Below, in pieces: positions 8,184 through 34,675 of a stretch of 64,000 bases of DNA. Position 1 is the first letter of the stretch. Each line of letters starts with the position of its first letter. The position numbers and the translations under genes were made by a program. The notes under the pieces are model-generated. The model was not told where the DNA came from. It made no database searches and saw nothing but the letters and a program-made list of their open reading frames with translations. Origin of the DNA: Cystobacter ferrugineus (GTDB lineage: Bacteria > Myxococcota > Myxococcia > Myxococcales > Myxococcaceae); NCBI RefSeq assembly GCF_001887355.1, contig NZ_MPIN01000027.1, positions 1-64,000 of the forward strand. Direction: 5' to 3'.

Positions 8184-8208
8184 GAGCGCTTGCTCCCCAT
8201 TCCCGGCT

Positions 8209-11030: not shown

Positions 11031-11069
11031 GGCCGATAGGAGACACCGGGTCGCCCGCTGGCCCTGGGC

Positions 11070-11612: not shown

Positions 11613-12176
11613 TCAGCGCTGATGCGAGGGCGGGGGAATAGAACGCTTCGGCGGCTCCTCCATCGGGCGGTTGCAGTACAGCCAGGCCGTGAGCCCCAGC
11701 AACGCCATCACCGCCAGGCGCCTCATCAAGTCCTCCCGCCGCCTCGTGGGGGAGTTCTCCTCCTCGCGCTCGGCGGCCTGGAGCGCCCCCGTCACCTCCT
11801 GGCCCAGGGCGCGCATCCGCCGGCACAACGCCAGTGTCTCCGTCAGGGCGGGAGGCACCCCCACGGTGTCCTGCTCGAGCGCTCCGGTCAGGGCCCGTGC
11901 CCAGACATCCTCTTCCGCGTCGTTCTCCGGTGGCCGGCAGGGCAGGGACGCCGCCCGGGTCACTCCCAGCGCCGCGCGCAGGAAGTGGACGGAGAAGGAC
12001 TCCGGGGAGATGCCGTAGAAGGCCGCGCTCTGCTCCAGGGAGCGGCCCTGGGTCAGCCGCGTGAGCAGGAAGGCGGCCTCGCGGTAGGGCAGGGCTCGGA
12101 GCGCCGCGAGCAGTTCCGCGGTCGAGAAATGGGAGGCGTCGGGGGCAGGGGACACGGGCGCGGCATTCTCCGACAT
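11613..12176 (-). CDS. Sigma-region-4-like protein with C-terminal membrane segment
   Basis: A 187-residue protein. Residues about 18-70 resemble the helix-turn-helix of sigma region 4 (LRALPYREAAFLLTRLTQG followed by a second helix pair). Its last 40 residues carry Arg-rich sequence, then one hydrophobic helix (about 150-167) and a short Pro-rich tail. No region 2 is present, so it is not a complete sigma factor. It could be a membrane-tethered regulator or an anti-sigma-like partner (inference). It is divergent from the SpoIID-like gene, with about 50 bases between the starts. Confidence 0.65.
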   Translation of the reverse strand: MSENAAPVSPAPDASHFSTAELLAALRALPYREAAFLLTRLTQGRSLEQSAAFYGISPESFSVHFLRAALGVTRAASLPCRPPENDAEEDVWARALTGALEQDTVGVPPALTETLALCRRMRALGQEVTGALQAAEREEENSPTRRREDLMRRLAVMALLGLTAWLYCNRPMEEPPKRSIPPPSHQR

Positions 12177-12226
12177 CCGGCGGCTGATTTCTTGAGCCGT
12201 GATCCGCCCCCCCTACACTGGCGGCC

Positions 12227-13333
12227 ATGTGGCGACCTGTTGCACTGCTGTTGCTCCTGCTCGTGCCCCTGCGCGCGCCCGCCGTGGAGACCATGCGCAT
12301 CGCCATGGGTGACGCCCAGGGCGAGGTGCGCGTGAGTGGCAAGGGCCTCTCCTTTGGTTCCGATACCGAGGACGCCGCCTTCACCCCCCTCCAGCAGGAC
12401 GGGGTGGTCGTGCGGCGGCGGGGCTCGCGCCTGGAGCTCAACGGCGCCCCCGTCATCGGCTCCGCGGTGCGCTTCCGCGCTGGCGTGGAGTCGTCGGACG
12501 CGGGCACTCCGGGTGACTCGGCCATTCGCGCCCGGGACATGGAGGTGCGCGGCGACGTCGTGGTGCGCCTGTACAAGGACGGGCTCCAGCTCATCAACGT
12601 CATCGCCCTGGAGGACTACCTCGCCGCCGTGCTCGGCAGCGAGATGCCCGTCTCCTTCCCCTCCGAGGCCCTCAAGGCCCAGGCCGTGGCGGCCCGCACC
12701 TACGCCCTTCAGAAGAAGTTGGAGGCCTACGGTGCCCCCTTCCACATGGGCAGCAGCGTGCTCCACCAGGTGTATGGCGGACTCAACCGCGAGGACCCTC
12801 GCACCCGCGCCGCCGTGGTGGCCACCCGTGGAGAGGTGCTGACGTACGAGCTCGCCCCCATCGAGGCCTACTTCCATGCCTCCTGCGGTGGCCACACCGA
12901 GTCCGGCTGGGATTCGCTCCAGCGGGATCTGCCCTACCTCAAGGCCGTGGAATGCCCGTGTGGCCGCCTGCCCGCCAGCCGCTGGAGCGCCACCGTCTCC
13001 GACGCCGAGCTGCGCGCTGCCCTGGGCCAGCCCACCGAGGGCTTCCGGGTGACGGGACGCACCTCCACGCACCGGGTGAGCCGGGTCAGCGTGGCCGGCG
13101 GAGCCTCGGTGGATGGGGCCCAGTTCCGGCGCAAGCTCGGCTACACGAAGCTCAAGAGCCTGGACTTCGACGTGGAGCACACCCAAGGCAAGTGGCATTT
13201 CACCGGCCGTGGCTATGGCCATGGGGCGGGCCTCTGCCAGTGGGGCGCCAAGGCGCTGGCCGACGGCGGCATGTCCTACCGGGACATCCTCCTGCACTAC
13301 TACCCGGACACCGAGCTGCAGCAGCTCTACTGA
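12227..13333 (+). CDS. SpoIID/LytB-domain protein
   Basis: A 368-residue exported protein with a signal peptide in the first 20 residues. The SpoIID core is visible from about residue 115: VIALEDYLAAVLGSEMP, then the block SEALKAQAVAARTYAL, and a late GHGAGLCQWGAKALAD motif. SpoIID is a peptidoglycan lytic transglycosylase active on denuded glycan strands during spore engulfment in Firmicutes. In myxobacteria it may act in cell-wall turnover or in sporulation, which involves loss of peptidoglycan. A 61-base gap leads to queA on the same strand, so co-transcription is possible. Confidence 0.88.
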   Translation: MWRPVALLLLLLVPLRAPAVETMRIAMGDAQGEVRVSGKGLSFGSDTEDAAFTPLQQDGVVVRRRGSRLELNGAPVIGSAVRFRAGVESSDAGTPGDSAIRARDMEVRGDVVVRLYKDGLQLINVIALEDYLAAVLGSEMPVSFPSEALKAQAVAARTYALQKKLEAYGAPFHMGSSVLHQVYGGLNREDPRTRAAVVATRGEVLTYELAPIEAYFHASCGGHTESGWDSLQRDLPYLKAVECPCGRLPASRWSATVSDAELRAALGQPTEGFRVTGRTSTHRVSRVSVAGGASVDGAQFRRKLGYTKLKSLDFDVEHTQGKWHFTGRGYGHGAGLCQWGAKALADGGMSYRDILLHYYPDTELQQLY

Positions 13334-13394
13334 AGCTCCACCGCTACATCCCGTTTCGTCCGAGGCGCCCGGGCTGTTACAAGCGGCTCCCGCC

Positions 13395-15681
<2,287 letters not shown>

Positions 15682-19204: not shown

Positions 19205-19465
19205 GTTCCCCCGCACCATCCAGGTAGCGCTCGCCGAGGCCCTCGGGCTCCGTGACTCCACGGACCCGCGGGCCTCGGGTGTTTCCAGGGGACGGAGGGC
19301 CCTCGCGCGAGCCCCGGCGAAGGTATATCCCACCCCCTTGAGAGGGCAGGCGAGCAGGGGAGCGAGCCCCAGGTCAGGTCAGGCTGGACAGACCCCCCAG
19401 GTAGAGTGATGAAGATTTGTGGCCTGGACGCCTCCACGGTAGGAGGCTCCGGAGTGGAGGTGATT

Positions 19466-21181
19466 GTGCGTTGGATGATGCCGGAAGTGCCCCAGGAGCA
19501 GGCGGCTTCACTGTCCGTGGAGCTGGGTCTCCATCCCCTGCCGGCGCGAATCCTCATCCACCGCGGACTGCGCACCCCCGAGGCCGCCTCCGCCTTCCTG
19601 TCGGACCGGCTGGCCGATCTGCCCGATCCCTTCCGGATGAAGGGCATGGCCGTGGGCGTGGAGCGACTCATCCGGGCCATCCGGGAGAAGGAGCGCATCA
19701 CCCTCTACGGTGACTATGACGTGGACGGCGTGTGCTCCACGTCGCTCATGGCCCTGTTCCTCCGGGAACTGGGCGCCCGGCCCGCCACCTACATCCCCCA
19801 CCGCATGGACGAGGGCTATGGCCTCAACCTCCAGGCGGTGGAGAAGATCGCCGCGGACGGCACCCGGGTGCTGGTGACGCTCGACTGTGGCATCACCTCC
19901 GTGGCGGAGATCGCCCGGGCGAAGGAGCTGGGGCTGGACGTGGTGGTGGTGGACCACCACACGGTGCCCCCCACGCTGCCCCCCGCGGTGGCCGTGCTCA
20001 ATCCCCACCAGCCCGGCTGCGAGTACCCCACCAAGCACCTGTGCGCCGCCGGCGTGGCCTTCAACCTCTGCATGGGCCTGCGCAAGCGGCTGCGCGATGA
20101 TGGCTGGTTCGCCACCCGCAAGGAGCCCAACCTCAAGGCACTGATGGACCTGGTGGCCATGGCCACCGTGGCGGACGTGGTGCCGCTCACCGGCGCCAAC
20201 CGCATCCTCGTCCACCATGGCCTCCAGGCGCTGAGCGCGGGCCTGCGTCCCGGCGTCCGGGCGCTCAAGGAGGTGGCGGGGCTGGACGCGGACAGTCCCG
20301 TGTCCGCCGGGCAGGTAGGCTACCGGCTGGGCCCGCGCATCAACGCCGCGGGACGGCTGCATGATGCCTCGCTGGGCCTTCAGCTCCTGTGCTCGGAGAC
20401 CCTCGAGGCGGCCCGTCCGCTCGCGCAGGTGTTGGATCGGGCCAACGCCGAGCGCCAGGGTCTGGAGAGCAGCATCCTCACCGAGGCGCTCGCCCAGGCC
20501 GGGGAGCGCGCCGAGCAGAACGCCCGCGGCTTCGTGCTCTACGCGGACGGGTGGCACCCGGGCGTCATCGGCATCGTGGCCTCGCGCGTGGTGGAGCGCT
20601 TCCACCGGCCCACGGTCATGGTGGGGGTGAAGGACGGGGTGGGCAAGGGCTCGGCGCGCAGCATCGAGGGCTTCCACCTCTACGACGCGCTGAGCGGCTG
20701 CGCGGATCTGTTCGCCCGCTTTGGCGGCCACAAGCACGCCGCCGGGCTCACCATCGAGGGCAAGCACCTGCCCGCCTTTCGCGAGGCCTTCGAGCGCATC
20801 GCGCACCAGCGCCTGACGCCCGAGGATCTCATCCCCCGCTGCAAGGTGGACGCGGTGGTGGGCGTGTCGGAGCTGGACGAGAAGGCGGTGGAGGCGCTGC
20901 AGAAGCTCGGGCCCTTCGGGCAGGGCAACCCCGAGCCCGTGCTGGTGCTGCGCCGCCAGGTGGCGCGCCCGCGCGTGCTGCCGCACAAGACGGGCGGCTC
21001 GGGGCACCTCAAGCTGGCCCTGGTGGACGCGCCCAGCGTGGACGCCATCGGCTTCGGCATGGCGGACAAGCTGGCCCTGACCGAGGGGCCCGTCGATCTG
21101 GCCTTCCAGGCCGGCTTCGACACCTTTCGCGGCCAGCGCCGGTTGTCCCTCAAGCTCAAGGACTTGCGGATCGCCGCCTAG
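19466..21181 (+). CDS. recJ: Single-stranded-DNA-specific exonuclease RecJ
   Basis: A 571-residue RecJ, a 5'-3' ssDNA exonuclease in recombination and mismatch repair. DHH motifs: LYGDYDVDGVCSTS, then the DCGIT motif, then VVVDHHTVP. The DHHA1 motif GGHKHAAG (about 430) and a C-terminal OB domain follow. A longer frame from 19406 exists, but GTG 19466 is chosen: a near-perfect GGAGGTGAT lies just upstream and the protein then begins VRWMMPEVPQ, matching the family's usual N-terminus. About 260 bases separate it from secF; that gap shows no gene. It is the last native gene before the foreign block. Confidence 0.94.
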   Translation: MRWMMPEVPQEQAASLSVELGLHPLPARILIHRGLRTPEAASAFLSDRLADLPDPFRMKGMAVGVERLIRAIREKERITLYGDYDVDGVCSTSLMALFLRELGARPATYIPHRMDEGYGLNLQAVEKIAADGTRVLVTLDCGITSVAEIARAKELGLDVVVVDHHTVPPTLPPAVAVLNPHQPGCEYPTKHLCAAGVAFNLCMGLRKRLRDDGWFATRKEPNLKALMDLVAMATVADVVPLTGANRILVHHGLQALSAGLRPGVRALKEVAGLDADSPVSAGQVGYRLGPRINAAGRLHDASLGLQLLCSETLEAARPLAQVLDRANAERQGLESSILTEALAQAGERAEQNARGFVLYADGWHPGVIGIVASRVVERFHRPTVMVGVKDGVGKGSARSIEGFHLYDALSGCADLFARFGGHKHAAGLTIEGKHLPAFREAFERIAHQRLTPEDLIPRCKVDAVVGVSELDEKAVEALQKLGPFGQGNPEPVLVLRRQVARPRVLPHKTGGSGHLKLALVDAPSVDAIGFGMADKLALTEGPVDLAFQAGFDTFRGQRRLSLKLKDLRIAA

Positions 21182-21314
21182 TCGGAAGCTGACTTCGGCT
21201 GCCTGGGTCGTGGCCTTGCGCGCGTCAAGCCGTGGAAAGGCCAATTGCCATGAACACCATGGATGCGGCATGCGCATGGGTTCCCAGCCCAGGGGCCCGA
21301 CGCCTCCACTGCTT
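21182..21314. other. Left junction of the foreign block
   Basis: 133 bases between the recJ stop and the stop of the candidate immunity gene. The change from myxobacterial to foreign sequence must fall here. I see no inverted terminal repeat, no tRNA fragment, and no copy of the right-junction sequence near 34036. Confidence 0.4.
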
Positions 21315-22226
21315 TCACCCAACGACCAGACGCCCCACTGCCACGTCGGGGTGAACCATGCCGCCGTCGATGTAGAGATCCCAGCGATCATGGATGCGGA
21401 ACAGCGTCTCCTCGACCGAGCCGTAGTGCGCCGCCTGCGGATGCAGGACGAGCGTGGCGCCGCTCAATTGGAGCGTGAGTTCGAGCGAGTCTGCGTCGAA
21501 ACGTGCCGACGCCACCGGACCGGCCCGTAGGACGGCCGTCAGCAGCTCGAAGGCCTTCGTCAGTGCCTGCTGGTCCGCGTCGGGCAGCTTGCGCGGCATC
21601 GCGCGCGTCGAAACCGGTGCCTGCCCGTCGGGCACCAGGGTCCATCGACGGCTCTGCAGTCCCACGCCGCGGTCGAAGCGGATCGTCACGTTCGGGTCGT
21701 CCGGCAGCGAACGCATCAGCTGTGTCACCCGCGCATCGCACAGGGCGGCCAGCCCGGCCTCGAGCAACCGCGCCGGGTCGGGCTTCCCGGCCGGCTTGCG
21801 CGACTTGCCTGTCTTGCCGCCTTTCTTCAACGCGCGGACCTGGTCAGTGGCCCATTCGAGGGCGTCGTCGGGATCGACGAGCGTGCCGTCCGGCGCTTCC
21901 AGCACACCGCCGCAGATGACGGCGATGTTGGCCGCGACGAGAGCGGCGCAGATGCCATCGGTGGCAGAGGAGCGATATCCGGCGGTGGCGACATGGTCGA
22001 AGCGTTGCCCGGCTAGCGCCTGCGGCAACGCTTCCACCTGCTCCAGTTCCCATTCGAAACCGCACTCCTGCTCGCCGATCCGGCAGGGCACCCAGCCCTC
22101 GTCACTCTGCGGATCGAACGCTTCGGCGAAAGCGAACTTCGGCTCCATCGCGCGGACCATCTTGGCCAGCCAGCCAGCGTCCGGCAGCAGGCTGGCTTGA
22201 AGGTATACGGCGATGCTCGTCGACAC
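21315..22226 (-). CDS. Candidate immunity protein for the Rhs toxin
   Basis: A 303-residue cytoplasmic-looking protein (no signal peptide or membrane helix), starting at GTG 22226 with GGGAG eight bases before it, only 29 bases after the Rhs stop codon. The N-terminal half contains WVPCRIGEQECGFEWELE and a segment ending IAVICGGVLEAPDG; the middle is Lys-rich (KKGGKTGKSRKPAGK). The C-terminal half ends DGGMVHPDVAVGRLVVG. I do not recognise the family. The role is inferred only from position: polymorphic toxin genes are typically followed directly by the gene that neutralises their variable C-terminal domain. Confidence 0.6.
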   Translation of the reverse strand: MSTSIAVYLQASLLPDAGWLAKMVRAMEPKFAFAEAFDPQSDEGWVPCRIGEQECGFEWELEQVEALPQALAGQRFDHVATAGYRSSATDGICAALVAANIAVICGGVLEAPDGTLVDPDDALEWATDQVRALKKGGKTGKSRKPAGKPDPARLLEAGLAALCDARVTQLMRSLPDDPNVTIRFDRGVGLQSRRWTLVPDGQAPVSTRAMPRKLPDADQQALTKAFELLTAVLRAGPVASARFDADSLELTLQLSGATLVLHPQAAHYGSVEETLFRIHDRWDLYIDGGMVHPDVAVGRLVVG

Positions 22227-22255
22227 GGTTCACTCTCCCTGGCACGGCGAAGGCA

Positions 22256-25200
22256 CTATCGCGGAAGTACGTCGATGTGGACCTGCACCACGTCACCGAA
22301 GTAACTGCGTCGCTTGCGGATGCCGCCCTTGCTGTAGCCCTTGCCGATCTTGAGGTCCAGGCCGAGTACGTTGTCGCCTTTGTACTGGACCAGCACGTCG
22401 ATACCCACCGAGCCCTTGCGTCCCTTGCCCGAGTGTTCTCCGTCGTCGTCCGCGAACGGTTCGGCGACGACGGTGATGCCGTGGTAGTTGAGCTTGCGCA
22501 GTTCCTTGGCGACATCGGCCAGGCGCGCCTTCAACCGCTGGTGCGCGGCGGTGCCTGCCGCGCCCTTGTTGGGGAAGTCGCCCATCCCGACCAGGTCCAT
22601 GACCGACTTCACCATCGCATCGAGCACCAGCTCGCCGACCAGGCCGAGGCTTTCCGGCGGCTTGCCGAACAGCACCTGGCGCATCACGATGCGGCCGCCC
22701 TGCGCGGTGCCCACTCGGGTGATGCCCTGCAGGTTCATCGACAGGCCGATGTTGCCGATGCTCGCCACGCCGAAGTAACCGCTCGGATCGACGTAATACG
22801 TGGGCGCCGAATTGGCATACAGGTACTTGTGCAGCGTCACCGGGTCGGTGCTTTCGCCCGGATAGGGGTCGAGCGAAACGAAGCGGCCCGAACGCGGGTC
22901 CATGTAGCGGGCGCGCAGGTAATAGAACCCGAGGTTCGGGTCTAGCTGCTCGCCGGCGAACAGGAATGCGTTGTCGCTGGTGCCGGTGTGGGACTCGGTT
23001 TCGCCGAAGGCCTCGTACCAGTAGCGGTCCGTGGCGGCGCCAGCAGCCGTGCTCAGCAGACGCGTGCTGCCCAGGCCGTCGAGGTGGAGGTAGTCCGTCT
23101 GGGTGCCTTCGCTGCGGGCAATGCGCTCGTCGCCGGTCAGGTACAGCACGGAGCGGCCGCCACTGTGCTCCTCGATGACCTGGTCGTGCTCGGCCACCGG
23201 ATCGACCACGAAGCGCGTCGTGACGCCATTGACGGTCTGCGACTGACGGATGCCATTGGCGTCGTAGACGTAGGTCATCACCGAGGCCGGCGTGACCGCA
23301 TCGACCAGGCGACCGGCTCCGTCGTAGCCAAACAGGCTCTGGCCCGTACCGTCGTTGCGCTCGATCAGGCTTCCATTGGCATCGTAGAGGTACTGGACCA
23401 CGCTGCCGTCGCTGGCGACTTCCTGTTCCAGGCGATCGTTGGCGTCGTAGGTATACGTCGTGGTGCGCGTGACGCCCGCCTTGACCCGAACCTGTGTCAG
23501 GCGGTTGCCGACCGCGTCATAGGTCCAGTCGGTGGTGCGGTTTCCACGCGTGCTGTCGGTGACCTGCTCGCGTTTCAGGCGCTTGAGCGCGTCGTACTGG
23601 TACACGACGGTGCGCGTCGCGCCCGACCCGCTCTCCACCACCTGTGTGCGCAGGCCCGAGGCATCGACCGTGTACGTCAGTCCCAGAAGCACCGCGCTGG
23701 TGGCGGTGCGATGGAAGAGCGTGCGCAAACGGTTGCGCACGTCGTAGACGTAGTCGGCACGGTTGCCGTTGGGTAGTTGCACGGCGCTGCGGTTGCCGAC
23801 GTCGTCGTAGGCGTAGGACGTCGTCGCCCCGCCACGCGTGACGGTCGAGAGGCGATTGAGCTCGTCGTAGCCGTAGGCGATATCCTGCTGGGCCGTGGTC
23901 ATGCGCACGCGGTTGCCCGCCGCGTCGTAGGCGTAGCCGATCTCGATACCGTCGGGCTGGCGGATGGACACCAGCCGGTCGGCCGCGTCGTAGCCGTACA
24001 CCGTCGTGCCCGCCGCGGTCGTCGCGGTGGCGACCTGCCCGCTCGCGGTGTAGGTCGTCGAGGTGCCGCTGCCGTCGGAGTGGCGCACTTCGACTTCGCG
24101 GTTCATGGCGTCGTAGCGGTGCGTCGTGATCGCACCGTTGAAGTCCGAGGTGACGGTCAGGTTGCCATTGGCGTCGTACTGGCTGAACTCGGCCTGTCCG
24201 CCCGGCAGCGTCCGCGAGGTGACGCGTCCGGCATCGTCGTAGGTCCAACGCGTCGTGCGTCCCAGCGCGTCGGTCTGCTGCAACTTGTTGCCCAGCGCGT
24301 CGTAGACGTAGGTCGTGCGCTTGCCGTCCGCATCGACCACCGCCGCGAGCTGACCCAGCACGGTGTACTCGAACACCGTGGTGCGGTTCATCTCGTCGGT
24401 CTGGCTCGCCTTGCGGCCCAGCGCGTCGTACGTGATGCGGCTGCGCGGGTTGTCGGCATCCGACGTGGTGGTATCGGGATGGATGGTCTCCACCAGCCGA
24501 CCGGCCGCGTCGTGGACGAACTTGGTCGTGCGACCCAACGCGTCGCGCACGCTGGCCTGCGTGCCGTCGGGATTGTAGGTCGTCACCGTGCTCTTGCCGC
24601 GCGCGTCGGTCACCACCGACACGCGACCGGCATCGTCATATGCGAACTGGGTGAGGTTGCCGCGACCGTCCTGGCGACTGAGCTGGCGGCCGGCCTTGTC
24701 GTAGGCCGAGCGCGTGACGCTGCCGTCCGGATGCCGGGTTTCCGTCAGCCGTCCCGCCGCGTCGTAGACCTTCTCCGTGAGGCCGCCGTCCGGGCCCACG
24801 CGCGTGACCTGCCGGTTCTCCGCGTCGTATCCGAGGCGTTCACGGGTGCCATCCGGGAACCGGGTCTCGACGAGGTTGCCTGACGCGTCGTAGTCCATCT
24901 CGGTGCGATGGCCGTTGGCATCGATGCGCGCCGACTCCTTGTCGATCGCGTTGTACTCCACGCGAACGGTATTGCCCCGAGGATCGATGACCGCGGTGCG
25001 TCGACCCTTGGCGTCGTACTCGTAGCGCGTGACGAGCGTGCGCGGGTTGCCATCGGCGCCCTGCACGTCGCGCGACTCGCTCAGCACGCGACCCATCGTG
25101 TCGTACGCATAGCGCACCACATGACCGGCTGCGTCGGTCTCGCGCGTCTTGTTGCCCTGCGCGTCATAGGCGAACGTGCTGACCGCACCGAGCGGTCGAC

Positions 25201-28200
25201 GCAGTTCGGTCAGCGCACCGGACGAGGAATACGCCATCTCCGTACGCTGACCAGAGGCGTCGACGGTGGAGCGCATCTGTCCGGTGCGGCCGTCGTAGAC
25301 ATTGTTCGCCGTCACCACGCCGTTGGCATCGGTCTGCGTCAGCACCTGTCCGCGGTTGTCGTAGGTCCAGCGCGTCACCTGGCCGAGCGGGTTGGTCTCC
25401 TTGGTCTTGTTGCCGGCGGTGTCGTACTCCCAGCGCCAGAGTTCACCCTCGCCGTTCTCGCGCGTGAGTTCGTTGCCGTACGCGTCGTAGCTGTGCCTGG
25501 TCACCTCGCCCAGCGGGTTGATCTCCTGCGTGATGCGGCCGTTCTCATCGAAGGCGTACGTCGTGGCGTGGCCCAGGCGGTTCTTCACCACCTGCGTGCG
25601 GCCATCCAGGTCGATGGTGTATTCGATCCGGCGTCCTTCGGCGTCGACGTGCGCGACCATGCGGCCGTTCTCGTCGTACTCCGTGCGCGCCGCGCGGATG
25701 CCGCGCGGATCGACGATGTCCTGTAGGTAGTGCGACCAGCGGCCTTGCAGGTAACCGTAGGTCGTGACGTTGCCGCCCTGGTCGACCGACGCGGACAGAT
25801 CGCCGACGAAGTCGTAGGTGTAGTCGATGAGGTTGCCGTCGGGCAGCTTGATCGTGGCGATGCGTCCGGCGCTGTCGCGGATGAACTGCACGCCCACGCC
25901 GCTGGAATGCAGGACGCCGTCGCGCGTGTAGGTCAGCGTGTTGCCGTCCAGGTCCGTGACGCGGCGGATGCCGACGCCCTGGTGCACGTCGTAGCGGATG
26001 CCTTCCTTGGTGGTCAGCGCGTAATCGTTCGGATCGGCCGGGCCAATCTCGCCCAGGTCGATCAGCTGGTTGCCCGCCAGGCGCACGTTGCCCAGCGTGG
26101 TCTGTTCCAGCTTGGACGTCGTGCCCGGCAGCGCTTCGAACGCGATCTGCACGTCGATGTTGGGCACCAGGAACTGGCATTCCGGCATCGCCTTGGCGCG
26201 GAACTTCTCCAGCTTTCCGTCCGGCAGCGCGACGGTGACGATCGGGTCGCCCTGCGGCTGCACGCACCAGTTGCTGAAGAAGCCATCGCGGTACTCGTTC
26301 AGGCTCCAGCCCTGGCCCACGGTGCGCGATTCGTGCACGCGCACGTTCTGGTAGTCCACGCTCCAGCCGTAGCCGAAGTCTAGCTTCTCGTGGCTGCGGC
26401 GGGTGTCGTAGGTGCGCGTGACCGTGATCGGCAGCCCCATCAGCGGGATCGACACGTCCTCGAAGCTGAGGCTGAAGTGGCCCAGCTTCATTTCGCCTTC
26501 GACCACGATGTTGCTGAAGGCCTTGGCCTGATGGCCGGCGCGATCCCAGGCTTCGAGCACGACCACGTACTGGCCGTTGAGCAGGCGCGTGGGATCGAGC
26601 TGGCCGAGCGCACCGGACACCTCGGTGTCACCGCTGGACACCTGCCGCGAGGCGGTGCCGCCGCGGTCGATCAGGTAGAGCTTCCAGCCGGCCAGGTCGG
26701 CATCCTGCACGGTGCCGGTGACGGTGGTGGGCGCGGTGACGACGGCGTCGTCGGTCGGCGCGGTCAGCGTGAGCGTCGGGCCTTCGCTGCTGCTGGCATC
26801 GAGCACGAAGAACTCGCCGATGGCCTGCGCGGTCTCCGTGCCGTCACTGACGGTGGCCTCGAGCACGTGGCGTCCGAGCACCGTGGTCTTCACCAGCGCG
26901 AGCAGGTTCGCATCGACCGGCACGAGCGTGCCATCCATGCGCAGTTCCACGTTGACCTGCGAACCGGCGTTGAGCGGCTGCACCTGCACGGTGACCACTT
27001 CGTTCGGTCCGACCTGCGCGGGCGACACGTCGAGCGTGGCGCTCAGCGCCAGGCCGTCGACCACGCGCAGCGACCAGGCCTGCTCGGTCCACAGCGCGCC
27101 GTCGCTGACGCGCACGCGCACCGGGAAGTCGCCGGCCTGCGTCGGCTGCCAGTCGATGCGGCCCGTCTGGGCGTCGATGGTCATGCCGGCCGGCGCCCGC
27201 GGGAGGCTGTAGGCCAGCAGGTCGCCGTCCGGATCGCGTGTGAGCACGTCGTAGCGGTAGGCGCGGTCGATCTTGGCCGACGTCGCTGGCGCGCTCAGGA
27301 TCACCGGCGCGCCGTTGTCGCCGCTGCCCTGTTCGGTGACTTCCAGCGTGAACGTCTGCCAGGCGACGCCGCCGCGGCCATCGTTCACCTGCACCTTCAC
27401 CGAGTGCGTGCCCAGCTGCGAAAGCGCCGGCGTCCATGCGATGGCGCCGGTGTCGGCGGCGATCGTCATGCCCTGCGGGCGTTCGAGCAGCTCGAAGGCC
27501 AGCGTGTCGCCGTCGGCGTCGCTGGCGGCGACGGCGTAGGCATAGGCCTGGCCGAGCACCGCGCGCGGGTTCGGCGCGCTGGTGATCCGCGGCGCGCGGT
27601 TGGATGCATCGTTGACGAAGACGGTGAAGTGCTGGCGCGACCAGCCGCCGCGTTCGTCGCGCACTTCCAGTTCGAACGCCTGCGCGCCCAGCTGCGAGGC
27701 GTCCGGCGTCCATCGCACCGTCGAGGCCGGGCCGACCTGCGCGCCAGCCGGCAGCGTATTCCACACGAACGCCAGCACGTCGCCGTCCGGATCGATGGCG
27801 GTGGCGGCGTACTCGTACGACTGGCCCAGCGTCATCGACAGCGTCGGCACGCTGGTGATCGACGGCGGGTTGTTCGGAGTGGCGTAGACCTTGATGGTGA
27901 AGGGCTGCTCGGCGCGCGCGTTGCGCTCGTCGATGGCGACGACCTTCACCGGCACCGGTGCGGCCGGGGCGGTGTTGGGCTGCCACAGCACCGTGCCGGT
28001 GCGCGCGTCGATCTGCATGCCCGTCGGCGCGCCTTCGAGCACGTAGCGGATGCGCTGGCCTTCCGGATCGATGGCGCGCACGTCGTAGCGGTAGAACTGG
28101 TTCACGGTCGCGGCCGTCACCGGGGTGGACTCGATCACCGGCGGTTGGTTGGGCTCGGTCGACGCGGTCACGTCCACCGTCCACGACTGCTGCGTGGCGT

Positions 28201-31200
28201 TGCCGTTGAGGCTGCGCGCGGCGATGACGAAGCTGAAGCGCCCCACCTGGCCCCAGCGCGGCGTCCACAGGAGCTCGCCGGTGCGCGGGTTGAGAGTGGC
28301 GCCATCCGGCGTCGTGCTGAGTTCGAACGTCACCACGTCACCCAGGTGCGGCGAGCTCGCCGTGGCCTGGTAGCGGTATGCCTGGTGTTCGATGGCGTTG
28401 CGCGGCGCGGTGCCGGTGAGTGTCGGCGCGAGCATGCGCTCGCTGACCGCGACCACCCACGTTTGTTGCGCCTCGAGGCCGCCGTGGTCACTGACGGACA
28501 CGCCCGCGACGCGGCCCGCGGCCACGTTGTTGCCCACCTCGCACTCGGCTTCGTCGGCCGCGGTGACGATCACCGCCGTGACGTCGCCAGCGCCGACGGC
28601 GTCCGGCGTCGTCGCCAGTTGCGCCGGCACGCTGCGGCCCGGTGCCAACGTCGGCACGGCGACCTTGCCCAGCAGCGTGCCGCTGCCAGCATCGCCGCGG
28701 TAGAAGGCTACCTCCAGCGGACGGCTGGATTCGGTGCCGCGGTTGTTGACGTCGGCGGTGAGCGTCAGCGCCGCGCCGTTCTGCGCACCGTACGGCGCGG
28801 ACACGCGCAGGTCGGGGCGGAACACCGTCGCCTGGGCCACGCTCTGGCGTCGGCCCTGCACGTACAGCGGCTGGGGCAGGCGCGAGGTGTCGGCCGGATT
28901 CGGCTTGAGGTCGGCGCGGATCTGGTCGAGCGCGAACGCGCTCTGGTGCAGCACGCGCGAGGCGGCATGCCACGGCAGGGTGCTCGAGCGGTAGGCGCGC
29001 AGCGCGTTGCCCTCGCTCAGCAGCAGTGTCGCGTTGCCGTCGCCGTCGATGTCGGCCAGCGTCGGCGTGTGGCTGTGGTCGCTCATGCCGGCGAAACGCC
29101 ACAGCACCGCGCCGCTGCGGCCGGCGATCATCTGCACGTAGCTGGGGTGGGTGGTGAAGATTTCCAGCTCGCCGTCGCGGTCGATGTCGGCCGCCATCGC
29201 CGCGCGGAAGTTGTTCGCGGACCAGTTGGTGGCGCCGCTGATCTCCCACATCGTCTCGCCCGCCGCGATCGAGTGCAGGCGTCCGGACGCGGCGAGAAAG
29301 ATGTCTTGCGTGCCGTCGTTGTTGAGGTCGGCCACCAGCAGCGGGCCGGCGTTGCTGATCTGCGCGGTGCGCAGCCAGACGAGGTTGCCGTCCGGATCGA
29401 CCAGGCTCAGGCGGTAGCCGCGGTTGGTGTACTCGCTCACCGCGATGTACGGGCGCGCACTGCCTTCCAGCGCCACCGGCGCGTAGAACGCGAAGTTCAC
29501 CGTGGCATCGACGGTACTGGGCAGCTTCTTGCGCAGCGCGCCGTTGGCATCACGGATCTCGCCGCGGTAGATGACCTCGCGGCGGCCGTCGTTGTCCAGG
29601 TCGATGGCCAGTGCGTGGCCGCGGTTGTCCGTACCCACCGGGAACTGCCACTTCAGCAGGCCGTGGGCGTTGTAGACCGACGGGCCGACGAGGATCTCGG
29701 CCAGTCCGTCGCCGTCCAGGTCGCTCACGCTGATGGCGTTGTAGTCCAGCGACGTCGTCGTGATCGGCGCGTTGCTGACCCACAGCGGCGTGCCGTTCGA
29801 GCGCAGCGCGACCAGATAGCGCTGGCTGTCGACGAACAGGATGTTGACCTCGCCCTCGCCGGTGAGGTCGGCCATCGCCGGCTGCACGTACCAGTCCGGC
29901 GTACGCTGGTTGTAGCTCCACAAGGTCTCGCCCGTGCGCGCGTCGAACGCGTGCAGGCGGCGGTTGGAGACGGTGGTGTCGGTCCAGGTCACGGCGACCG
30001 CCGCGACGAGGTCGTTGGAGGTGAGCTCACCGTCCAGGTCGGTGTCGACCAGTGGGCCGACCAGCGGCTGCGTCGGGAAGCGCACGCGGCTGTTGGTCCA
30101 GCGCACGCTCGGTGCGAACTCCCCCACGGATGGATCGCGCGCCAGGCAGAACGGGTTCTGCGCCGCCATCGCCGCCGGGTAGGCGGAAGCGACCGATGCG
30201 GCCGGCCAGGTCAGACGGCCGGTCGCGGTGTCGATCGTCGCGCCAGGCGGCACCACCGTGCCCTTCCACGCGAACTGCTCGAGCACGTTCACGTCGGAGA
30301 CCGACGGCGAGTACGAATAACTGCTGCCCAGCGTGGCCTGCAGGCCGGGTGCGCTGGTGATGCGCGGCGCCTGGTTGGGCAGATCGCCCAGCAGCGTGTA
30401 GACCTGCAAGTCGTAGTTGCCGTGCTGGTCGCGCACGCGCAGCACCACGCGCTCGCTCTTGCCGGCGAACGCCGCCGGCACCTGCCAGCGCACCACGCCG
30501 CTGGCCTCGTCGATGGCCAGGTCAAGCGGACCGAGGAAGACGTCGTAGCGCAGCTGCGAGGACGGCTCGGCCGTCACCTGCGTCGCGTACTCGTACAGCG
30601 TGCCCTGCACCGCGCGGCGCTCGGGCTCGGACATGAAGCGCGGCGGCAGGATCGCGGCGTCGACGGTCAGCGTGAAGCTCTGTCGCACTTCGGCGCCGGC
30701 GAGATCGCGCGCGATCACTTCGATCGTGTGCGTGCCCTGCTGCGAGACGTCGGCGATGAAGGTCACCTCGCCCGTGAGGCGGTTGATCGACATCCCGATC
30801 GGTGCGGCGCCAAGCGACCAGGCGACCGCGTCGCCGCGATCGGGATCGAGCACGGCCGCGCGGTAGACGTAGCGTCGGCCGACGCCGGTGGTGGATTCGG
30901 GCGTCGAGGTGAACACCGGCGCCTGGTTCTGGTCGACGACCTGGACGGAGAAGCCCTGCTCGTCGCTGAGTCCACCGCGGTCGCTGACGCGCGCGCGCAC
31001 CCAGGCCGCGTCGAGCGTGTTGTTGTCGACCGCGCACTCGGTGACCTGCTGCGACACCTCGATGCGCGCGCTCAGGCGCTTGGGGTCCGGACCCGTCGCG
31101 CCCCACCAGGGCACGCTCAGGTGAGTGATGGCGCCGGCGGCCAGGTCTGGCACGACCTCCAAGGAGATGAGCTGGTCGTCGGCGAAGACCTGCACGACCA

Positions 31201-33691
31201 CCGCCTCACCCACCGCGGCCAGGCCGCGGTTGCCGATGTCCAGTTCCACCGTGTCGCCGTTGGACTGCAGGCCGTGGATGTAGACGTCGGGCAGGTTGCG
31301 CGTGGGCAACTGTTGCAGGATTTCCTGCACCTTGATCTTCAGCAGCGCGTTGGTGAACGACTGCGCCACGCGGCCGCCGTCGCGCAGGACTTCGATGTCC
31401 CACGCGGCGCCGCCGGTCTCCAGCGCGAGCTTGACGTAGTCGCCGATGGTGTTGCCGTCGCCGCCGTACGCGCTGGCGTTCAGGCAGGTCTGGAAGCCGC
31501 CGCGGCCGTCGGCCTTGTAGCCGACGCTGTGCTGGCCCAGGCCCAGCGCGGCCGAGCCGTCGCCGCACTTGAAGCGCGCGTTGACCACCGCGTTGAGTAC
31601 GGCCTTGCCGGCCTGCATTTCGGCCAGCAGCGAGGCGTAGGTGATCGAGGCATCCGTGTTGTCGCGGTCCTCGTCGGTCACCAGGATGATGTTGCGCGCC
31701 GCCGTCTCGCGCAGCGGATACTGCGTCACCGCGTGGTGCACAGCGCGCCAGCCGTCCTCGGTGCCGCTGCCGCGCAGGCGAAGCTGGGCCGATGCGGTGA
31801 TGAACTGCCGGTAGTCGCCCATCGGTTCGGTACCGACGTTGATCGGCAGCGGCACCGGGTCGTAGGCCAGCAGGCCGTAGCGGTTCGGCACGGCGCCATC
31901 GCCGACGCCGTTGGTCATCAGGTGCGCTTCCAGCGGCGCGGCGAAGTCGGCCAGCCACTCGTGCTCGCCGGACATCGAGCCGGATTCGTCGACCACGACC
32001 ACCACGTCGGCCGCCGGCGCCAGACTGCTCACGCGTTCGCCACCGGCCATGCACATCGTGTTGGGCTGGCGGTTGTTGCCGGCCCAGCCGGCGGCGGCGA
32101 TCGCGGCCGCGTTCCAGCGGATCTCGCCGGTGTCGGCGGCGATGGTCATGCCCTGCGGCTGCTGAACCAGCGAGTGGGTCAGCACGTCGTTGAGGTCGGG
32201 ATCCTGCGCCTGCAACGCGTAGAGGTAGCCGTCCAGCTCCGGCGCGTCGAGCACGGCGGGACTGACGATGGACGGCGGGCGGTTGCTGCGTTCGACCACG
32301 AGCACGAACGATTGCGCATCGCTCGCACCGGCGCGGTCGGTGACGGCCACGGTGACCGGATGTTCGCCGGCCTGGTCGGCGCCGGGCTGCCAGTCGATCA
32401 CGCCGGTGGCGGGATCGATGGACATGCCAGCGGGCGCGGCGAGCAGGCTGTAGGTCAGCACGTCGCCGATGTCGATGTCCTCGGCGGTCACCGGGTAGCG
32501 ATACGGCGCGTTGTCCGCGGCGAGCAGCGGCGCGGTGCTGGTGATGCGCGGCGGATCGTTGACCGGCGTGACGGTGATGGCGACGGTGGCGACGGTGGAA
32601 TCCAGTTCGCCGTCGTTGGCGCGGAACGTGAGGCGGTCCGGGCCGTGGTAGTTGGGATTTGGCGTGTACACCAGCGCCGGCGCGGTGCCGGTCAGCGTGC
32701 CGTGCGTCGGCGCGTCGACGACGGTGTAGGTGAGTGCGTCGGACTGCGGATCGGTGGCGGTCAGCGTGAGCGGCAGCGCCACGTCTTCCGGCGTGGTGAC
32801 GGTGGCGTCCTTGGCCACCGGCGCCTTGTTGAAGCAGCGCCTGGCGCCGCGGTATTCGTAGCTCAGCCAGCCATTGCCGGTGAGCTGGTATCCGCGCAGG
32901 CGGATGACGGCGAAACGATCGACGCGGTAGGCGAACTTGCCGTTCTGGACGTTGCCGCCACCGTGGCCATGGTCGTCGTCGTGATGACCGCCCTTGCCGT
33001 GGTCCTTGTCCTTGCCGTGCTTGTGGCCTTTGCGGTCGCAATCCTTGCCGTAGTCGTGGTCGTCGTCATCGTCGCAGTGATTCTTGCCGTGCTTGTGGCC
33101 TTTGCGGTCGCAATCCTTGCCGTAGTCGTGGTCGTCGTCATCGTCGCAGTGATGGCCGCCGCCCTTCGTCGCGCGGTCGTACACCGGCACGATGATGTCC
33201 TTGTCGATCAGCGCATCGAGGTTGCGGCGCACGCTGGAGGCGTTCATCGAACCCGACGCACCCAGCACCCAGTCGCCGGCATCGAGGCGGCGATCGCGCG
33301 AATCGTAGGGATTGCGGTAGGTGTCGCTGTCGCCCGGTGGGCGCAGGCTTTCGGCCAGCGTCGGCGCGCTCTGGCTGCCGGCCCACGTCAGCCAACCGTA
33401 CTGACCGGCGCCGGTGCCGCGCGGCACACGATCGAACACGGCGCCCGGCTGCGCACCGGAAAGCAGATTCGCGGGAACGGCGATGGGATAGACCGCGCAC
33501 AGTTCGGGTTCGGGCTTGGGACCGCCGTGGCCCGGATGCCCCTTGCCCCAGCCGAAGAAGTCCAACAAGCGATGACCGCCGCCGGAGGCCAGCGCGATGT
33601 CGACCGACAACACGACCAGCGCGATGACGCCGACCAGACCAAAGGTGCGCGTGCGCGCGTGATAACCACTCCGGCCGTGACTGCTGTCCAT
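22256..33691 (-). CDS. Giant secreted Rhs/YD-repeat polymorphic toxin
   Basis: A 3811-residue protein. Start ATG 33691 (MDSSHGRSG) has GGGGAG upstream; an in-frame extension to 34132 runs through the glmS remnant and is not used. Order: signal anchor about 14-35; Asp/His-rich 24-residue tandem repeat 180-227; cadherin-like and He_PIG-type Ig repeats (about 280-540); von Willebrand A domain with MIDAS DESGSMSG near 568; more He_PIG repeats; FG-GAP/VCBS-like repeats (about 1210-1565); a CARDB-like segment near 1650; further He_PIG repeats to about 2230. Then come an Rhs N-terminal block near 2400, dozens of YD repeats (about 2580-3465), and the Rhs core LFAGEQLDPNLGFYYLRARY (about 3578) ending DPSGYFG, the usual toxin cleavage site. 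The last 170 residues are a variable toxin domain with D3765, D3779 and K3781 arranged like a PD-(D/E)XK nuclease (inference). Confidence 0.93.
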   Translation of the reverse strand: MDSSHGRSGYHARTRTFGLVGVIALVVLSVDIALASGGGHRLLDFFGWGKGHPGHGGPKPEPELCAVYPIAVPANLLSGAQPGAVFDRVPRGTGAGQYGWLTWAGSQSAPTLAESLRPPGDSDTYRNPYDSRDRRLDAGDWVLGASGSMNASSVRRNLDALIDKDIIVPVYDRATKGGGHHCDDDDDHDYGKDCDRKGHKHGKNHCDDDDDHDYGKDCDRKGHKHGKDKDHGKGGHHDDDHGHGGGNVQNGKFAYRVDRFAVIRLRGYQLTGNGWLSYEYRGARRCFNKAPVAKDATVTTPEDVALPLTLTATDPQSDALTYTVVDAPTHGTLTGTAPALVYTPNPNYHGPDRLTFRANDGELDSTVATVAITVTPVNDPPRITSTAPLLAADNAPYRYPVTAEDIDIGDVLTYSLLAAPAGMSIDPATGVIDWQPGADQAGEHPVTVAVTDRAGASDAQSFVLVVERSNRPPSIVSPAVLDAPELDGYLYALQAQDPDLNDVLTHSLVQQPQGMTIAADTGEIRWNAAAIAAAGWAGNNRQPNTMCMAGGERVSSLAPAADVVVVVDESGSMSGEHEWLADFAAPLEAHLMTNGVGDGAVPNRYGLLAYDPVPLPINVGTEPMGDYRQFITASAQLRLRGSGTEDGWRAVHHAVTQYPLRETAARNIILVTDEDRDNTDASITYASLLAEMQAGKAVLNAVVNARFKCGDGSAALGLGQHSVGYKADGRGGFQTCLNASAYGGDGNTIGDYVKLALETGGAAWDIEVLRDGGRVAQSFTNALLKIKVQEILQQLPTRNLPDVYIHGLQSNGDTVELDIGNRGLAAVGEAVVVQVFADDQLISLEVVPDLAAGAITHLSVPWWGATGPDPKRLSARIEVSQQVTECAVDNNTLDAAWVRARVSDRGGLSDEQGFSVQVVDQNQAPVFTSTPESTTGVGRRYVYRAAVLDPDRGDAVAWSLGAAPIGMSINRLTGEVTFIADVSQQGTHTIEVIARDLAGAEVRQSFTLTVDAAILPPRFMSEPERRAVQGTLYEYATQVTAEPSSQLRYDVFLGPLDLAIDEASGVVRWQVPAAFAGKSERVVLRVRDQHGNYDLQVYTLLGDLPNQAPRITSAPGLQATLGSSYSYSPSVSDVNVLEQFAWKGTVVPPGATIDTATGRLTWPAASVASAYPAAMAAQNPFCLARDPSVGEFAPSVRWTNSRVRFPTQPLVGPLVDTDLDGELTSNDLVAAVAVTWTDTTVSNRRLHAFDARTGETLWSYNQRTPDWYVQPAMADLTGEGEVNILFVDSQRYLVALRSNGTPLWVSNAPITTTSLDYNAISVSDLDGDGLAEILVGPSVYNAHGLLKWQFPVGTDNRGHALAIDLDNDGRREVIYRGEIRDANGALRKKLPSTVDATVNFAFYAPVALEGSARPYIAVSEYTNRGYRLSLVDPDGNLVWLRTAQISNAGPLLVADLNNDGTQDIFLAASGRLHSIAAGETMWEISGATNWSANNFRAAMAADIDRDGELEIFTTHPSYVQMIAGRSGAVLWRFAGMSDHSHTPTLADIDGDGNATLLLSEGNALRAYRSSTLPWHAASRVLHQSAFALDQIRADLKPNPADTSRLPQPLYVQGRRQSVAQATVFRPDLRVSAPYGAQNGAALTLTADVNNRGTESSRPLEVAFYRGDAGSGTLLGKVAVPTLAPGRSVPAQLATTPDAVGAGDVTAVIVTAADEAECEVGNNVAAGRVAGVSVSDHGGLEAQQTWVVAVSERMLAPTLTGTAPRNAIEHQAYRYQATASSPHLGDVVTFELSTTPDGATLNPRTGELLWTPRWGQVGRFSFVIAARSLNGNATQQSWTVDVTASTEPNQPPVIESTPVTAATVNQFYRYDVRAIDPEGQRIRYVLEGAPTGMQIDARTGTVLWQPNTAPAAPVPVKVVAIDERNARAEQPFTIKVYATPNNPPSITSVPTLSMTLGQSYEYAATAIDPDGDVLAFVWNTLPAGAQVGPASTVRWTPDASQLGAQAFELEVRDERGGWSRQHFTVFVNDASNRAPRITSAPNPRAVLGQAYAYAVAASDADGDTLAFELLERPQGMTIAADTGAIAWTPALSQLGTHSVKVQVNDGRGGVAWQTFTLEVTEQGSGDNGAPVILSAPATSAKIDRAYRYDVLTRDPDGDLLAYSLPRAPAGMTIDAQTGRIDWQPTQAGDFPVRVRVSDGALWTEQAWSLRVVDGLALSATLDVSPAQVGPNEVVTVQVQPLNAGSQVNVELRMDGTLVPVDANLLALVKTTVLGRHVLEATVSDGTETAQAIGEFFVLDASSSEGPTLTLTAPTDDAVVTAPTTVTGTVQDADLAGWKLYLIDRGGTASRQVSSGDTEVSGALGQLDPTRLLNGQYVVVLEAWDRAGHQAKAFSNIVVEGEMKLGHFSLSFEDVSIPLMGLPITVTRTYDTRRSHEKLDFGYGWSVDYQNVRVHESRTVGQGWSLNEYRDGFFSNWCVQPQGDPIVTVALPDGKLEKFRAKAMPECQFLVPNIDVQIAFEALPGTTSKLEQTTLGNVRLAGNQLIDLGEIGPADPNDYALTTKEGIRYDVHQGVGIRRVTDLDGNTLTYTRDGVLHSSGVGVQFIRDSAGRIATIKLPDGNLIDYTYDFVGDLSASVDQGGNVTTYGYLQGRWSHYLQDIVDPRGIRAARTEYDENGRMVAHVDAEGRRIEYTIDLDGRTQVVKNRLGHATTYAFDENGRITQEINPLGEVTRHSYDAYGNELTRENGEGELWRWEYDTAGNKTKETNPLGQVTRWTYDNRGQVLTQTDANGVVTANNVYDGRTGQMRSTVDASGQRTEMAYSSSGALTELRRPLGAVSTFAYDAQGNKTRETDAAGHVVRYAYDTMGRVLSESRDVQGADGNPRTLVTRYEYDAKGRRTAVIDPRGNTVRVEYNAIDKESARIDANGHRTEMDYDASGNLVETRFPDGTRERLGYDAENRQVTRVGPDGGLTEKVYDAAGRLTETRHPDGSVTRSAYDKAGRQLSRQDGRGNLTQFAYDDAGRVSVVTDARGKSTVTTYNPDGTQASVRDALGRTTKFVHDAAGRLVETIHPDTTTSDADNPRSRITYDALGRKASQTDEMNRTTVFEYTVLGQLAAVVDADGKRTTYVYDALGNKLQQTDALGRTTRWTYDDAGRVTSRTLPGGQAEFSQYDANGNLTVTSDFNGAITTHRYDAMNREVEVRHSDGSGTSTTYTASGQVATATTAAGTTVYGYDAADRLVSIRQPDGIEIGYAYDAAGNRVRMTTAQQDIAYGYDELNRLSTVTRGGATTSYAYDDVGNRSAVQLPNGNRADYVYDVRNRLRTLFHRTATSAVLLGLTYTVDASGLRTQVVESGSGATRTVVYQYDALKRLKREQVTDSTRGNRTTDWTYDAVGNRLTQVRVKAGVTRTTTYTYDANDRLEQEVASDGSVVQYLYDANGSLIERNDGTGQSLFGYDGAGRLVDAVTPASVMTYVYDANGIRQSQTVNGVTTRFVVDPVAEHDQVIEEHSGGRSVLYLTGDERIARSEGTQTDYLHLDGLGSTRLLSTAAGAATDRYWYEAFGETESHTGTSDNAFLFAGEQLDPNLGFYYLRARYMDPRSGRFVSLDPYPGESTDPVTLHKYLYANSAPTYYVDPSGYFGVASIGNIGLSMNLQGITRVGTAQGGRIVMRQVLFGKPPESLGLVGELVLDAMVKSVMDLVGMGDFPNKGAAGTAAHQRLKARLADVAKELRKLNYHGITVVAEPFADDDGEHSGKGRKGSVGIDVLVQYKGDNVLGLDLKIGKGYSKGGIRKRRSYFGDVVQVHIDVLPR
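33011..33153 (-). repeat. 72-bp tandem repeat coding an Asp-rich motif
   Basis: Two near-identical copies in tandem with a 72-base period (33011-33082 and 33083-33153), encoding a 24-residue unit with CDDDDDHDYGKD and KGHKHGK. A shorter, diverged Asp/His/Lys stretch follows in the protein. The unit is in frame and suggests recent duplication. Asp/His-rich repeats on secreted proteins often bind Ca2+ or other divalent metals (inference). Confidence 0.85.
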
Positions 33692-33840
33692 GTCGCTCTC
33701 CCCAGAGCACCAGGGCCGAAGCCCGGTTCCTTTCAGGTCACTGCCGCCCGGTCGCGCCGGGACGCGTACGGTACTACGCAATGTCCAAGCAATGTCCAAG
33801 GGAGAAAAGTCTGCCTTCCTGTCATGCGAAGGCGGCGGCG
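33692..33840 (-). promoter_or_regulatory. Leader of the Rhs gene, between glmS remnant and rhs start
   Basis: 149 bases. It holds the Shine-Dalgarno GGGGAG just upstream of the Rhs ATG, a small hairpin CCCGG-TCGCG-CCGGG at 33747-33761, and a direct repeat CAATGTCCAAG at about 33779-33800. The hairpin could end transcription from the donor's glmS. No clear promoter hexamers were recognised. Confidence 0.4.
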
Positions 33841-34035
33841 TTATTCGACCGTCACCGACTTGGCGAGATTGCGCGGCTTGTCCACGTCGGTCCCGTGCGC
33901 GAGCGCTGCGTGATAGGCGAGCAATTGCACCGGGATGGCGTGCACCATCGGCGCCAGCACGCCGACGTGGCGCGGAGCGCTGATCACGTGCGCGCCTTCG
34001 GACGGGCCGAACTCGCTGTCCTCGTCGATGAAGAC
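33841..34035 (-). pseudogene. glmS: 3' fragment of glmS (glucosamine-6-P synthase), foreign type
   Basis: The minus strand encodes the last 64 residues of GlmS with an intact stop: from VFIDEDSEF through [19 protein letters not shown] to [17 protein letters not shown]. This is the strongly conserved C-terminal tail of the isomerase domain and is closest in feel to gammaproteobacterial (Xanthomonadaceae-like) sequences. Upstream of the VFIDED codons, similarity to GlmS stops abruptly, so about 545 residues are missing and there is no start. It lies 150 bases before the Rhs gene on the same strand, as if the Rhs locus sat just downstream of glmS in a donor genome. Confidence 0.88.
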
Positions 34036-34340
34036 GTTGAGGGTGAGGGCTGGATTGGCGGACTCCGAAGTGGAACGCGGCCAGCAACTCGTGGAGCCCT
34101 GGACGAAGGTCACGACCACCGAGTCTCCCCAAGCGGAGGCAGAGCCGAAGCCACGAGATCCGTCAGGGCCGAGATGAATTCCTTGGCGTACCTCCAGGGG
34201 CGGGGGCTCTTCGGACGGGGCCGTGTGGACGAGGGGCTCGCCATGGCCCGTGTCCAAGTGGACGTGGGGCCCACTCGCGCATCCCGCCAGCCAGGGCACC
34301 ACCCTCGGCAACCAACCTGAGTCCGCTCCACTTTGTGCAT
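34036..34340 (-). pseudogene. Frameshifted, truncated myxobacterial lipoprotein gene
   Basis: The minus strand shows a lipobox-like VVPWLAGC, then [18 protein letters not shown] and PPPLEV in one frame. It continues in another frame as [17 protein letters not shown], ending at a stop near 34125. The opening [12 protein letters not shown] pattern resembles the N-terminus of a lipoprotein family common in myxobacteria (TIGR02269-like, from memory). The reading frame is broken and the 3' part is replaced by the glmS fragment. It is probably native sequence cut by the foreign block. Confidence 0.5.
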
Positions 34341-34453
34341 GCGCTCCCCCCCCCACTCCCTGGATAGGGAGCAGGGCGGAGGCTTTCACAGGGCGGAACT
34401 GAAAGGGTGGAGAGCGCGGGTTGACGACCCCCGCGAAATCTCCCTTGGGTGGC

Positions 34454-34675
34454 TCAGGCGATTCCCCAGCGCACCCGGCCGGGTGTCAGCAGCGCTCCCG
34501 CGCGCGCCAGGTCGTTCATCCGAAAGCGCTCCGCCCGCTTCTCGAAGGCCGTGCGGCACCGCTCCGAACAGAAGAAGTACCGCCGCTTCTTGTACTCCGT
34601 GGACGGGCGGCCCTCGGGCGCTTCCAGGTGCTTGCCGCACACCGGATCCAACTGCCGTTTCTGCGTGCTCTTCAT
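34454..34675 (-). CDS. Small YHS-domain protein
   Basis: A 73-residue protein consisting of one YHS domain: [13 protein letters not shown] at the N-terminus, then [24 protein letters not shown], giving the C...C-x3-C pattern of YHS/TRASH metal-sensing domains. Such domains bind Cu or other soft metals and often sit next to metal ATPases or oxygenases; no such partner is adjacent here. It is the first intact native gene to the right of the foreign block. Confidence 0.82.

Follow-up and report, generated by a model that had tools for sequence, protein, structure and literature searches.

The chromosome of the myxobacterium carries, between recJ and a gene for a small YHS-type protein, a block of roughly 13 kb that was very probably acquired by a single transfer, across phyla, of a glmS-Rhs fragment from a chromosome of the family Lysobacteraceae. 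The block consists of a giant Rhs gene with an open frame, a putative immunity gene and the 3' end of a glmS gene. The Rhs core and the glmS tail belong to the Lysobacter family, and the Rhs codon use resembles that of this donor family. In one Lysobacteraceae genome (G104) glmS and Rhs are collinear, and in relatives of the host the same site is empty or, in the closest ones, filled by a SitA5 toxin cassette. A preliminary description had proposed one transfer of a glmS-downstream fragment into a myxobacterium, and the relatives of Rhs and glmS, the gene order of G104 and the codon use support this proposal. The transfer appears to have been single and recent.

Gene content and limits of the block

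The window analyzed comprises bases 1-64000 of the 64,290-base contig C27, in a genome of 12.05 Mb assembled in 42 contigs. The features of the block and its flanks are listed below; outside them, the contig is syntenic with myxobacteria.

19406..21181, plus strand: intact recJ of the host, an open reading frame with its stop codon at the left edge of the block
21182..21317, no strand: spacer from the recJ stop to the stop of the putative immunity gene, left edge of the insertion
21318..22226, minus strand: putative immunity gene, 303 aa, GTG start, named from its position 3' of the Rhs stop
22256..33691, minus strand: giant Rhs polymorphic toxin gene, 3811 aa (open reading frame, RHS/YD repeats, Rhs-associated core)
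22256..22798, minus strand: polymorphic C-terminal toxin region of Rhs, different from the tips of G104 and Root916
33841..34035, minus strand: Lysobacteraceae-type glmS tail, last 64 codons and stop (NCBIfam glmS model, nucleotide identity)
34036..34150, plus strand: host-type debris, a fragment like a gene of the relative G001 (78% over about 80 bases, 34044-34123)
34150..34345, minus strand: 5' stub of a broken gene for a sitA5-like lipoprotein toxin (partial match to NF050093, DNA relatives)
34454..34675, minus strand: gene for a small YHS-type protein, right flank, named by reading of the sequence

Open reading frames, domains and coordinates agree with the arrangement described before, with Rhs, immunity gene and glmS tail between recJ and myxobacterial genes, and the distance of 150 bases given for the glmS stop and the Rhs start was measured as 149 bases. 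On the left side, the stop codon of recJ marks the point (21177-21182) at which similarity to the corresponding region of seven relatives is lost. The spacer 21182-21317 has no match in the myxobacterial or Lysobacteraceae loci compared. On the right side, two Lysobacteraceae glmS loci cease to match the DNA at 34036, in line with the loss of similarity placed earlier at 34035. One correction is needed on this side: similarity to the two closest genomes (G002 and G003) resumes only at 34316, and in five others at 34448-34458. The interval without a counterpart in G002 and G003 thus extends to 34315, beyond the end of the glmS tail, because bases 34036-34345 are host-type debris and not recognizably foreign DNA.

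The Rhs frame is open from the ATG at 33691 to the stop at 22256-22258 and contains no internal stop. The protein matches PF05593 (RHS/YD repeats) in 21 stretches with E 1.3e-110, and the Rhs-associated core model TIGR03696 with 57.4 bits against a cut-off of 32.5. From the N-terminus it is composed of a hydrophobic segment, Ig/cadherin-like repeats, a weak VWA match, FG-GAP, CARDB, RHS/YD repeats, the Rhs-associated core and a variable C-terminal domain; the hydrophobic segment was recognized by reading the sequence. Over 3626 codons aligned with the Rhs gene of G104, dN is 0.11 and dS is 0.46. The gene therefore evolved under constraint, presumably for the most part before the transfer.

Relatives of the Rhs gene and the glmS tail

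Lysobacteraceae is used here for the family of Lysobacter sp. Root916 as defined in the genome sample, of which 395 genomes were sampled for the Rhs and 297 for the glmS tail. Genome contigs were scanned with the N-terminal 2497 residues of Rhs, and 2 of 17 candidate loci were confirmed, both from Lysobacter (sp. cf310 and sp. Root916, 78%). At the nucleotide level these two strains are 79% identical to the window over 22768-32933. A 4.3-kb part of the Rhs DNA is matched at E 1e-20 by four of the 395 Lysobacteraceae genomes, cf310 and Root916 included, and by two of 20 genomes of the genus of Root916. The best relative is G104, with 87% identity in the 4.3-kb part and 83.5% over 22812-33785; no donor closer than 87% in that part was found among the 395 genomes. 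The outcome named beforehand as a refutation, with the nearest homologues lying at this locus in myxobacteria, did not occur. Among 98 myxobacterial genomes searched at E 1e-40 a comparable Rhs is present in the own genome and in none of its 97 relatives, while one other searched genome gives 43% over 272 aa.

The glmS tail corresponds to positions 545-607 of the 607 positions of the NCBIfam glmS model (E 2.5e-18). It is a 3' end that was carried along and not a complete two-domain enzyme. It is matched by 282 of the 297 Lysobacteraceae genomes, with best nucleotide identities of 87-88%; G104 reaches 85% and is thus not the closest in this part. A search for the host's own glmS revealed one full-length GlmS, with a C-terminus different from that encoded by the tail. 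The assignment of the block to another phylum is in agreement with these results, as both the best Rhs relatives and the glmS tail lie in the Lysobacter family.

In G104 (locus L057) the glmS stop is at 18341 and Rhs at 2785-14268, on one strand, collinear with the window and about 4 kb apart. The order on this strand is a glmS with complete end, a VirD4-like gene, an L,D-transpeptidase gene, an M23-type peptidase gene and Rhs. The intervening stretch L057:14605-18115, with the VirD4-like type IV secretion gene (PF02534), the L,D-transpeptidase (YkuD) and the M23-type peptidase, the last identified by sequence reading, is absent from the window copy. The proposed origin downstream of glmS is upheld by G104; the Rhs and glmS matches of cf310 and Root916 lie on different contigs, and the left 1.6 kb of the block has no assigned donor.

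A block whose closest relatives belong to another phylum would also be expected if Lysobacteraceae DNA from a mixed culture had been joined into a myxobacterial contig. Such an assembly chimera is unlikely, and its probability is set very low. It needs two separate false joins in one contig of 64,290 bases, one of them exactly at the recJ stop. The three 16S genes of the assembly are 100% identical over 1536 bases, the estimated contamination is 3.09 as compared to 2 for the one-contig relative G002, and a single GlmS is found, the other long SIS-domain frame that was read (contig C3) lacking the GlmS C-terminus. Moreover, 4 of 15 relatives have other genes inserted at this site, and a true insertion is preferred here.

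Composition

The G+C content per kb is 0.65-0.72 inside the block and similar outside, so that the block is not set apart by this measure, which was rejected as a mark of foreignness. Codon use is more informative. That of the Rhs gene correlates at 0.996 with the Rhs of G104, at 0.987 with three G104 genes pooled with the Root916 Rhs (a set not independent of Rhs), and at 0.925 with four host genes. The Rhs of G104 itself gives 0.919 with the host as compared to 0.925 for the window copy, which therefore shows hardly any drift towards the host. Tetranucleotide frequencies of the whole block correlate at 0.71 with the host and 0.74 with Lysobacteraceae, and those of four host segments, one of which overlaps the block by 527 bases, at 0.83-0.89 and 0.63-0.71, respectively. 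The compositional difference expected between block and flanks thus shows in codon use and in the tetranucleotides of the block taken as a whole. Individual 3-kb slices do not all show it: for those at 21001-25500 and 27001-30000 the similarity to Lysobacteraceae is no greater than that to the host. Third-position G+C is 0.83 in the immunity gene, 0.91 in Rhs, 0.81 in the four host genes together and 0.93 in recJ; given the values of recJ and the four host genes, this measure discriminates poorly.

C-terminal toxin region and putative immunity gene

In blocks of 200 residues, Rhs is identical to its G104 counterpart in 121-189 of 192-200 positions up to residue 3600, and then in 64 of 174. The drop starting at residue 3601 is also seen against Root916, and the tips of G104 and Root916 differ from that of the window and from each other. 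A core that is conserved and a tip that varies between orthologues is the mark of a polymorphic toxin (PMC3482391); the Rhs is of this known kind and carries a tip not described before. Searches of Pfam, NCBIfam, PDB sequences and plasmids gave no usable match for the tip, and a search of the 395 Lysobacteraceae genomes, run without a positive control, returned an empty result. Two NCBIfam matches (E 0.012 and 0.038) were dropped, being at chance level and far under the cut-off. A structure model of the tip, folded without an alignment, has a mean pLDDT of 47.8 and matched no fold at E 0.001; matches to beta-lactamase and MenT3 were discarded at E values of 0.013 and up and TM scores of 0.1-0.3. 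In this low-confidence model, predicted strands near the end of the tip carry a glutamate, an aspartate and a DLK stretch, from which a nuclease of the PD-(D/E)XK type might be guessed.

The 303-aa frame begins 29 bases after the Rhs stop. Its product has no Pfam or NCBIfam match at E 1 and nothing among PDB sequences and plasmids, and weak partial matches of 30-32% were obtained in 3 of the 395 Lysobacteraceae genomes. Reading of the neighborhoods of these three found no evident toxin beside them, and they therefore give no support to an immunity role; the protein is a putative cognate immunity protein by virtue of its position.

Toxin tip, immunity gene and the spacer 21182-21317 make up the last 1.6 kb of the block, which was matched to no donor. 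With no tip match and no close immunity match in the 395 genomes, this left part is not tied to the same donor as the remainder. It is conceivable, though rather doubtful, that two events took place, in which the Rhs core and the glmS tail came from Lysobacteraceae and the C-terminal toxin and the immunity gene were swapped later in the host, from another source. Exchange of the C-terminal toxin is usual for Rhs genes, and tip and immunity gene lack the close relatives in the donor-family sample that the core has. The lower third-position G+C of the immunity gene relative to Rhs also points this way, by a measure of poor discrimination. The exchange may, however, equally well predate the transfer and belong to the donor lineage; tips vary there as well, with G104, Root916 and the window each having a different one. 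We favor the reading that tip and immunity gene arrived together with the block.

The recipient site between recJ and the YHS gene

Among 58 relatives in the family, the region downstream of recJ was read in 20 genomes chosen by their recJ match, with G026 skipped. Over its last 1182 bases, recJ has an identity of 96% in G002 and G003 and of 89% in G001; the 11 genomes that follow reach 81-87%, and the rest less. The YHS gene was found downstream of recJ in 15 of the 20; the stretches read from the other five have no YHS match, two of them being short (1.8 and 4.4 kb). The two genes are separated by 8-58 bases in 11 of the 15, and recJ directly followed by the YHS gene is therefore the likely ancestral state. 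Whether relatives have recJ next to the YHS gene, a check suggested in the preliminary description, can thus be affirmed for 11 of the 20 genomes read.

In the remaining four (G002, G003, G016 and G025) the gap is 1.6-3.3 kb. The insert of G002 (2.8 kb) encodes, adjoining the YHS gene, a SitA5 toxin of 537 aa (NF050093, E 1.3e-61, 208 bits, cut-off 160), followed by a pentapeptide-like gene that presumably confers immunity to it. Qnr- and HalA-like matches of the latter gene were all under the cut-off and were dropped. The insert of G003 (2.2 kb) contains a SitA5 escort domain (204.5 bits, E 2.1e-60). At L020:2810-4171, minus strand, this escort reads in frame into part of the pentapeptide-like gene, as if the toxin domain had been deleted, both genes being whole in G002. 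The insert of G025 (1.6 kb, L025:17454-18818) was read as a transposase-like frame, and the site was therefore struck independently there. That of G016 (3.3 kb, L075:1190-4422) was read as genes for a 691-aa membrane transporter-like protein and an exonuclease/phosphatase-like protein. The SitA5 nature of the target site was absent from the preliminary description and was found here; as judged from these sequences, the recJ-YHS junction is a kin-discrimination toxin site.

A remnant of a similar gene is present in the window. Bases 34150-34345 match positions 3-40 of the 262 positions of the SitA5_escort model NF050093 with 25.1 bits and E 1.1e-5, which is below the SitA5 cut-off of 160, and the stretch is counted as a fragment and not as a SitA5 member. 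Its frame changes after a lipobox-like and an LDTG stretch, and some 115 bases separate it from the foreign glmS tail. DNA relatives of 34030-34345 occur in 7 of 59 genomes, the own one included. Those of the stub are found in contig C2 of the own genome (G000), in G010 and in G002; the G010 gene and the second gene of G002 pass the SitA5 cut-off. These relatives are located elsewhere, away from the recJ-YHS site. By blastn the stub does not match the SitA5 genes of G002 and G003 at this site, and the cassette that was lost was therefore a different one, or already broken. Between stub and glmS tail, bases 34044-34123 run in the opposite sense to the stub and resemble part of an unrelated G001 gene at 78% identity. 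By its sequence the right flank is a mosaic of scrambled host gene debris, and the debris at 34036-34345 is the outcome of more than one rearrangement.

The stub and the cassettes of G002 and G003 suggest that the block displaced a SitA5 cassette and that the stub is what was displaced, so that one polymorphic toxin locus apparently displaced another. A more far-reaching proposal, put forward only tentatively, is that the myxobacterium gave up its own SitA5 kin toxin, of the outer-membrane-exchange type, for the complete toxin-immunity locus of a competitor from another phylum, and that the foreign Rhs, with a toxin and an antidote not described before, helps to set social compatibility in the lineage. 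If this is true, the recJ-YHS junction is a site of toxin-cassette exchange open to cross-phylum donors.

Proposed mode of acquisition and function

A Lysobacteraceae fragment with the glmS 3' end, Rhs and, presumably, the immunity gene very probably entered the myxobacterial chromosome and integrated between recJ and the YHS gene, the site of SitA5 cassettes in the host lineage. The host probably took up DNA of a Lysobacteraceae bacterium, which then recombined at a locus tolerant of cassette turnover. DNA uptake by myxobacteria is a possible route of transfer, and the DNA may have come from killed cells or on a passing element.

The 3' end of glmS is the landing site of Tn7-type elements, and such an element leaves glmS outside itself. 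The attached glmS end and the VirD4-like gene between glmS and Rhs in G104 would fit movement of the block by a Tn7-like element targeting the glmS end, or by another genomic island. We regard this as scarcely probable, given that 64 glmS codons travelled with the block, that the two block proteins scanned (Rhs and the 303-aa protein) contain no transposase domain, that no tRNA gene is present in the window, and that 21160-21330 and 33990-34360 share no 9-mer, direct or inverted. The main coding space of the block is filled by Rhs and the immunity gene, and neither mobile-element machinery nor terminal repeats were seen in it. With glmS codons inside the block and no shared 9-mers at its ends, a Tn7-type origin was rejected in favor of the uptake of a chromosomal fragment.

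Rhs is most likely a long surface or secreted protein exported by a Sec-type route, as its sequence suggests, whose C-terminal toxin would be released into neighbors, with the downstream 303-aa protein most likely protecting the producer. The pair may serve the host as a weapon, or may be kept since loss of the antidote would be costly.

Comparison with known systems

Rhs polymorphic toxins are described, in the part of the source consulted, as having a C-terminal toxin tip and an immunity gene downstream (PMC3482391). The window Rhs shares with them the RHS/YD repeats, the core, the abrupt change after the core and the small gene downstream. It differs from the proteins described there by its very long N-terminal part (Ig/cadherin-like, weak VWA, FG-GAP, CARDB) and by a tip and a neighbor without usable Pfam, NCBIfam or PDB-sequence match. 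With the Rhs of cf310, Root916 and G104 it has the layout in common, at 79-84% nucleotide identity over 10-11 kb. The tips of G104 and Root916 are different (cf310 was left out of the tip alignment), and so is the chromosomal position in cf310 and Root916, whereas G104 is alike in position, though its glmS and Rhs lie about 4 kb farther apart. The locus adds to these systems a toxin tip and a putative antidote without known family.

A search of a literature library found no paper joining Lysobacter, myxobacteria, Rhs and horizontal gene transfer, and none of the papers found there dealt with Rhs transfer into myxobacteria. According to the parts consulted of a study of SitA, these lipoproteins pass between myxobacteria by outer membrane exchange, their genes often adjoin mobile elements, and two cassettes taken from a different species worked in M. 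xanthus (PMC5562445). It has been proposed that new social compatibility types arise in myxobacteria when toxin-immunity cassettes are gained by horizontal transfer, and the cases given in these parts of the study are sitAI cassettes within the order (PMC5562445). SitA5, as named in NCBIfam, resembles the Rhs in being a polymorphic toxin that is paired with an immunity gene, and its genes stand at this chromosomal position in G002 and G003. It is unrelated to Rhs in sequence and presumably in delivery, and in the window a broken 5' stub is all that is kept of it. In the present case the source lies in another phylum, and the transfer has left an unusually legible footprint, with the end of the donor glmS still attached and the possible stub of a displaced toxin beside it. 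The locus is thus a case of a foreign polymorphic toxin locus at a kin-discrimination toxin site.
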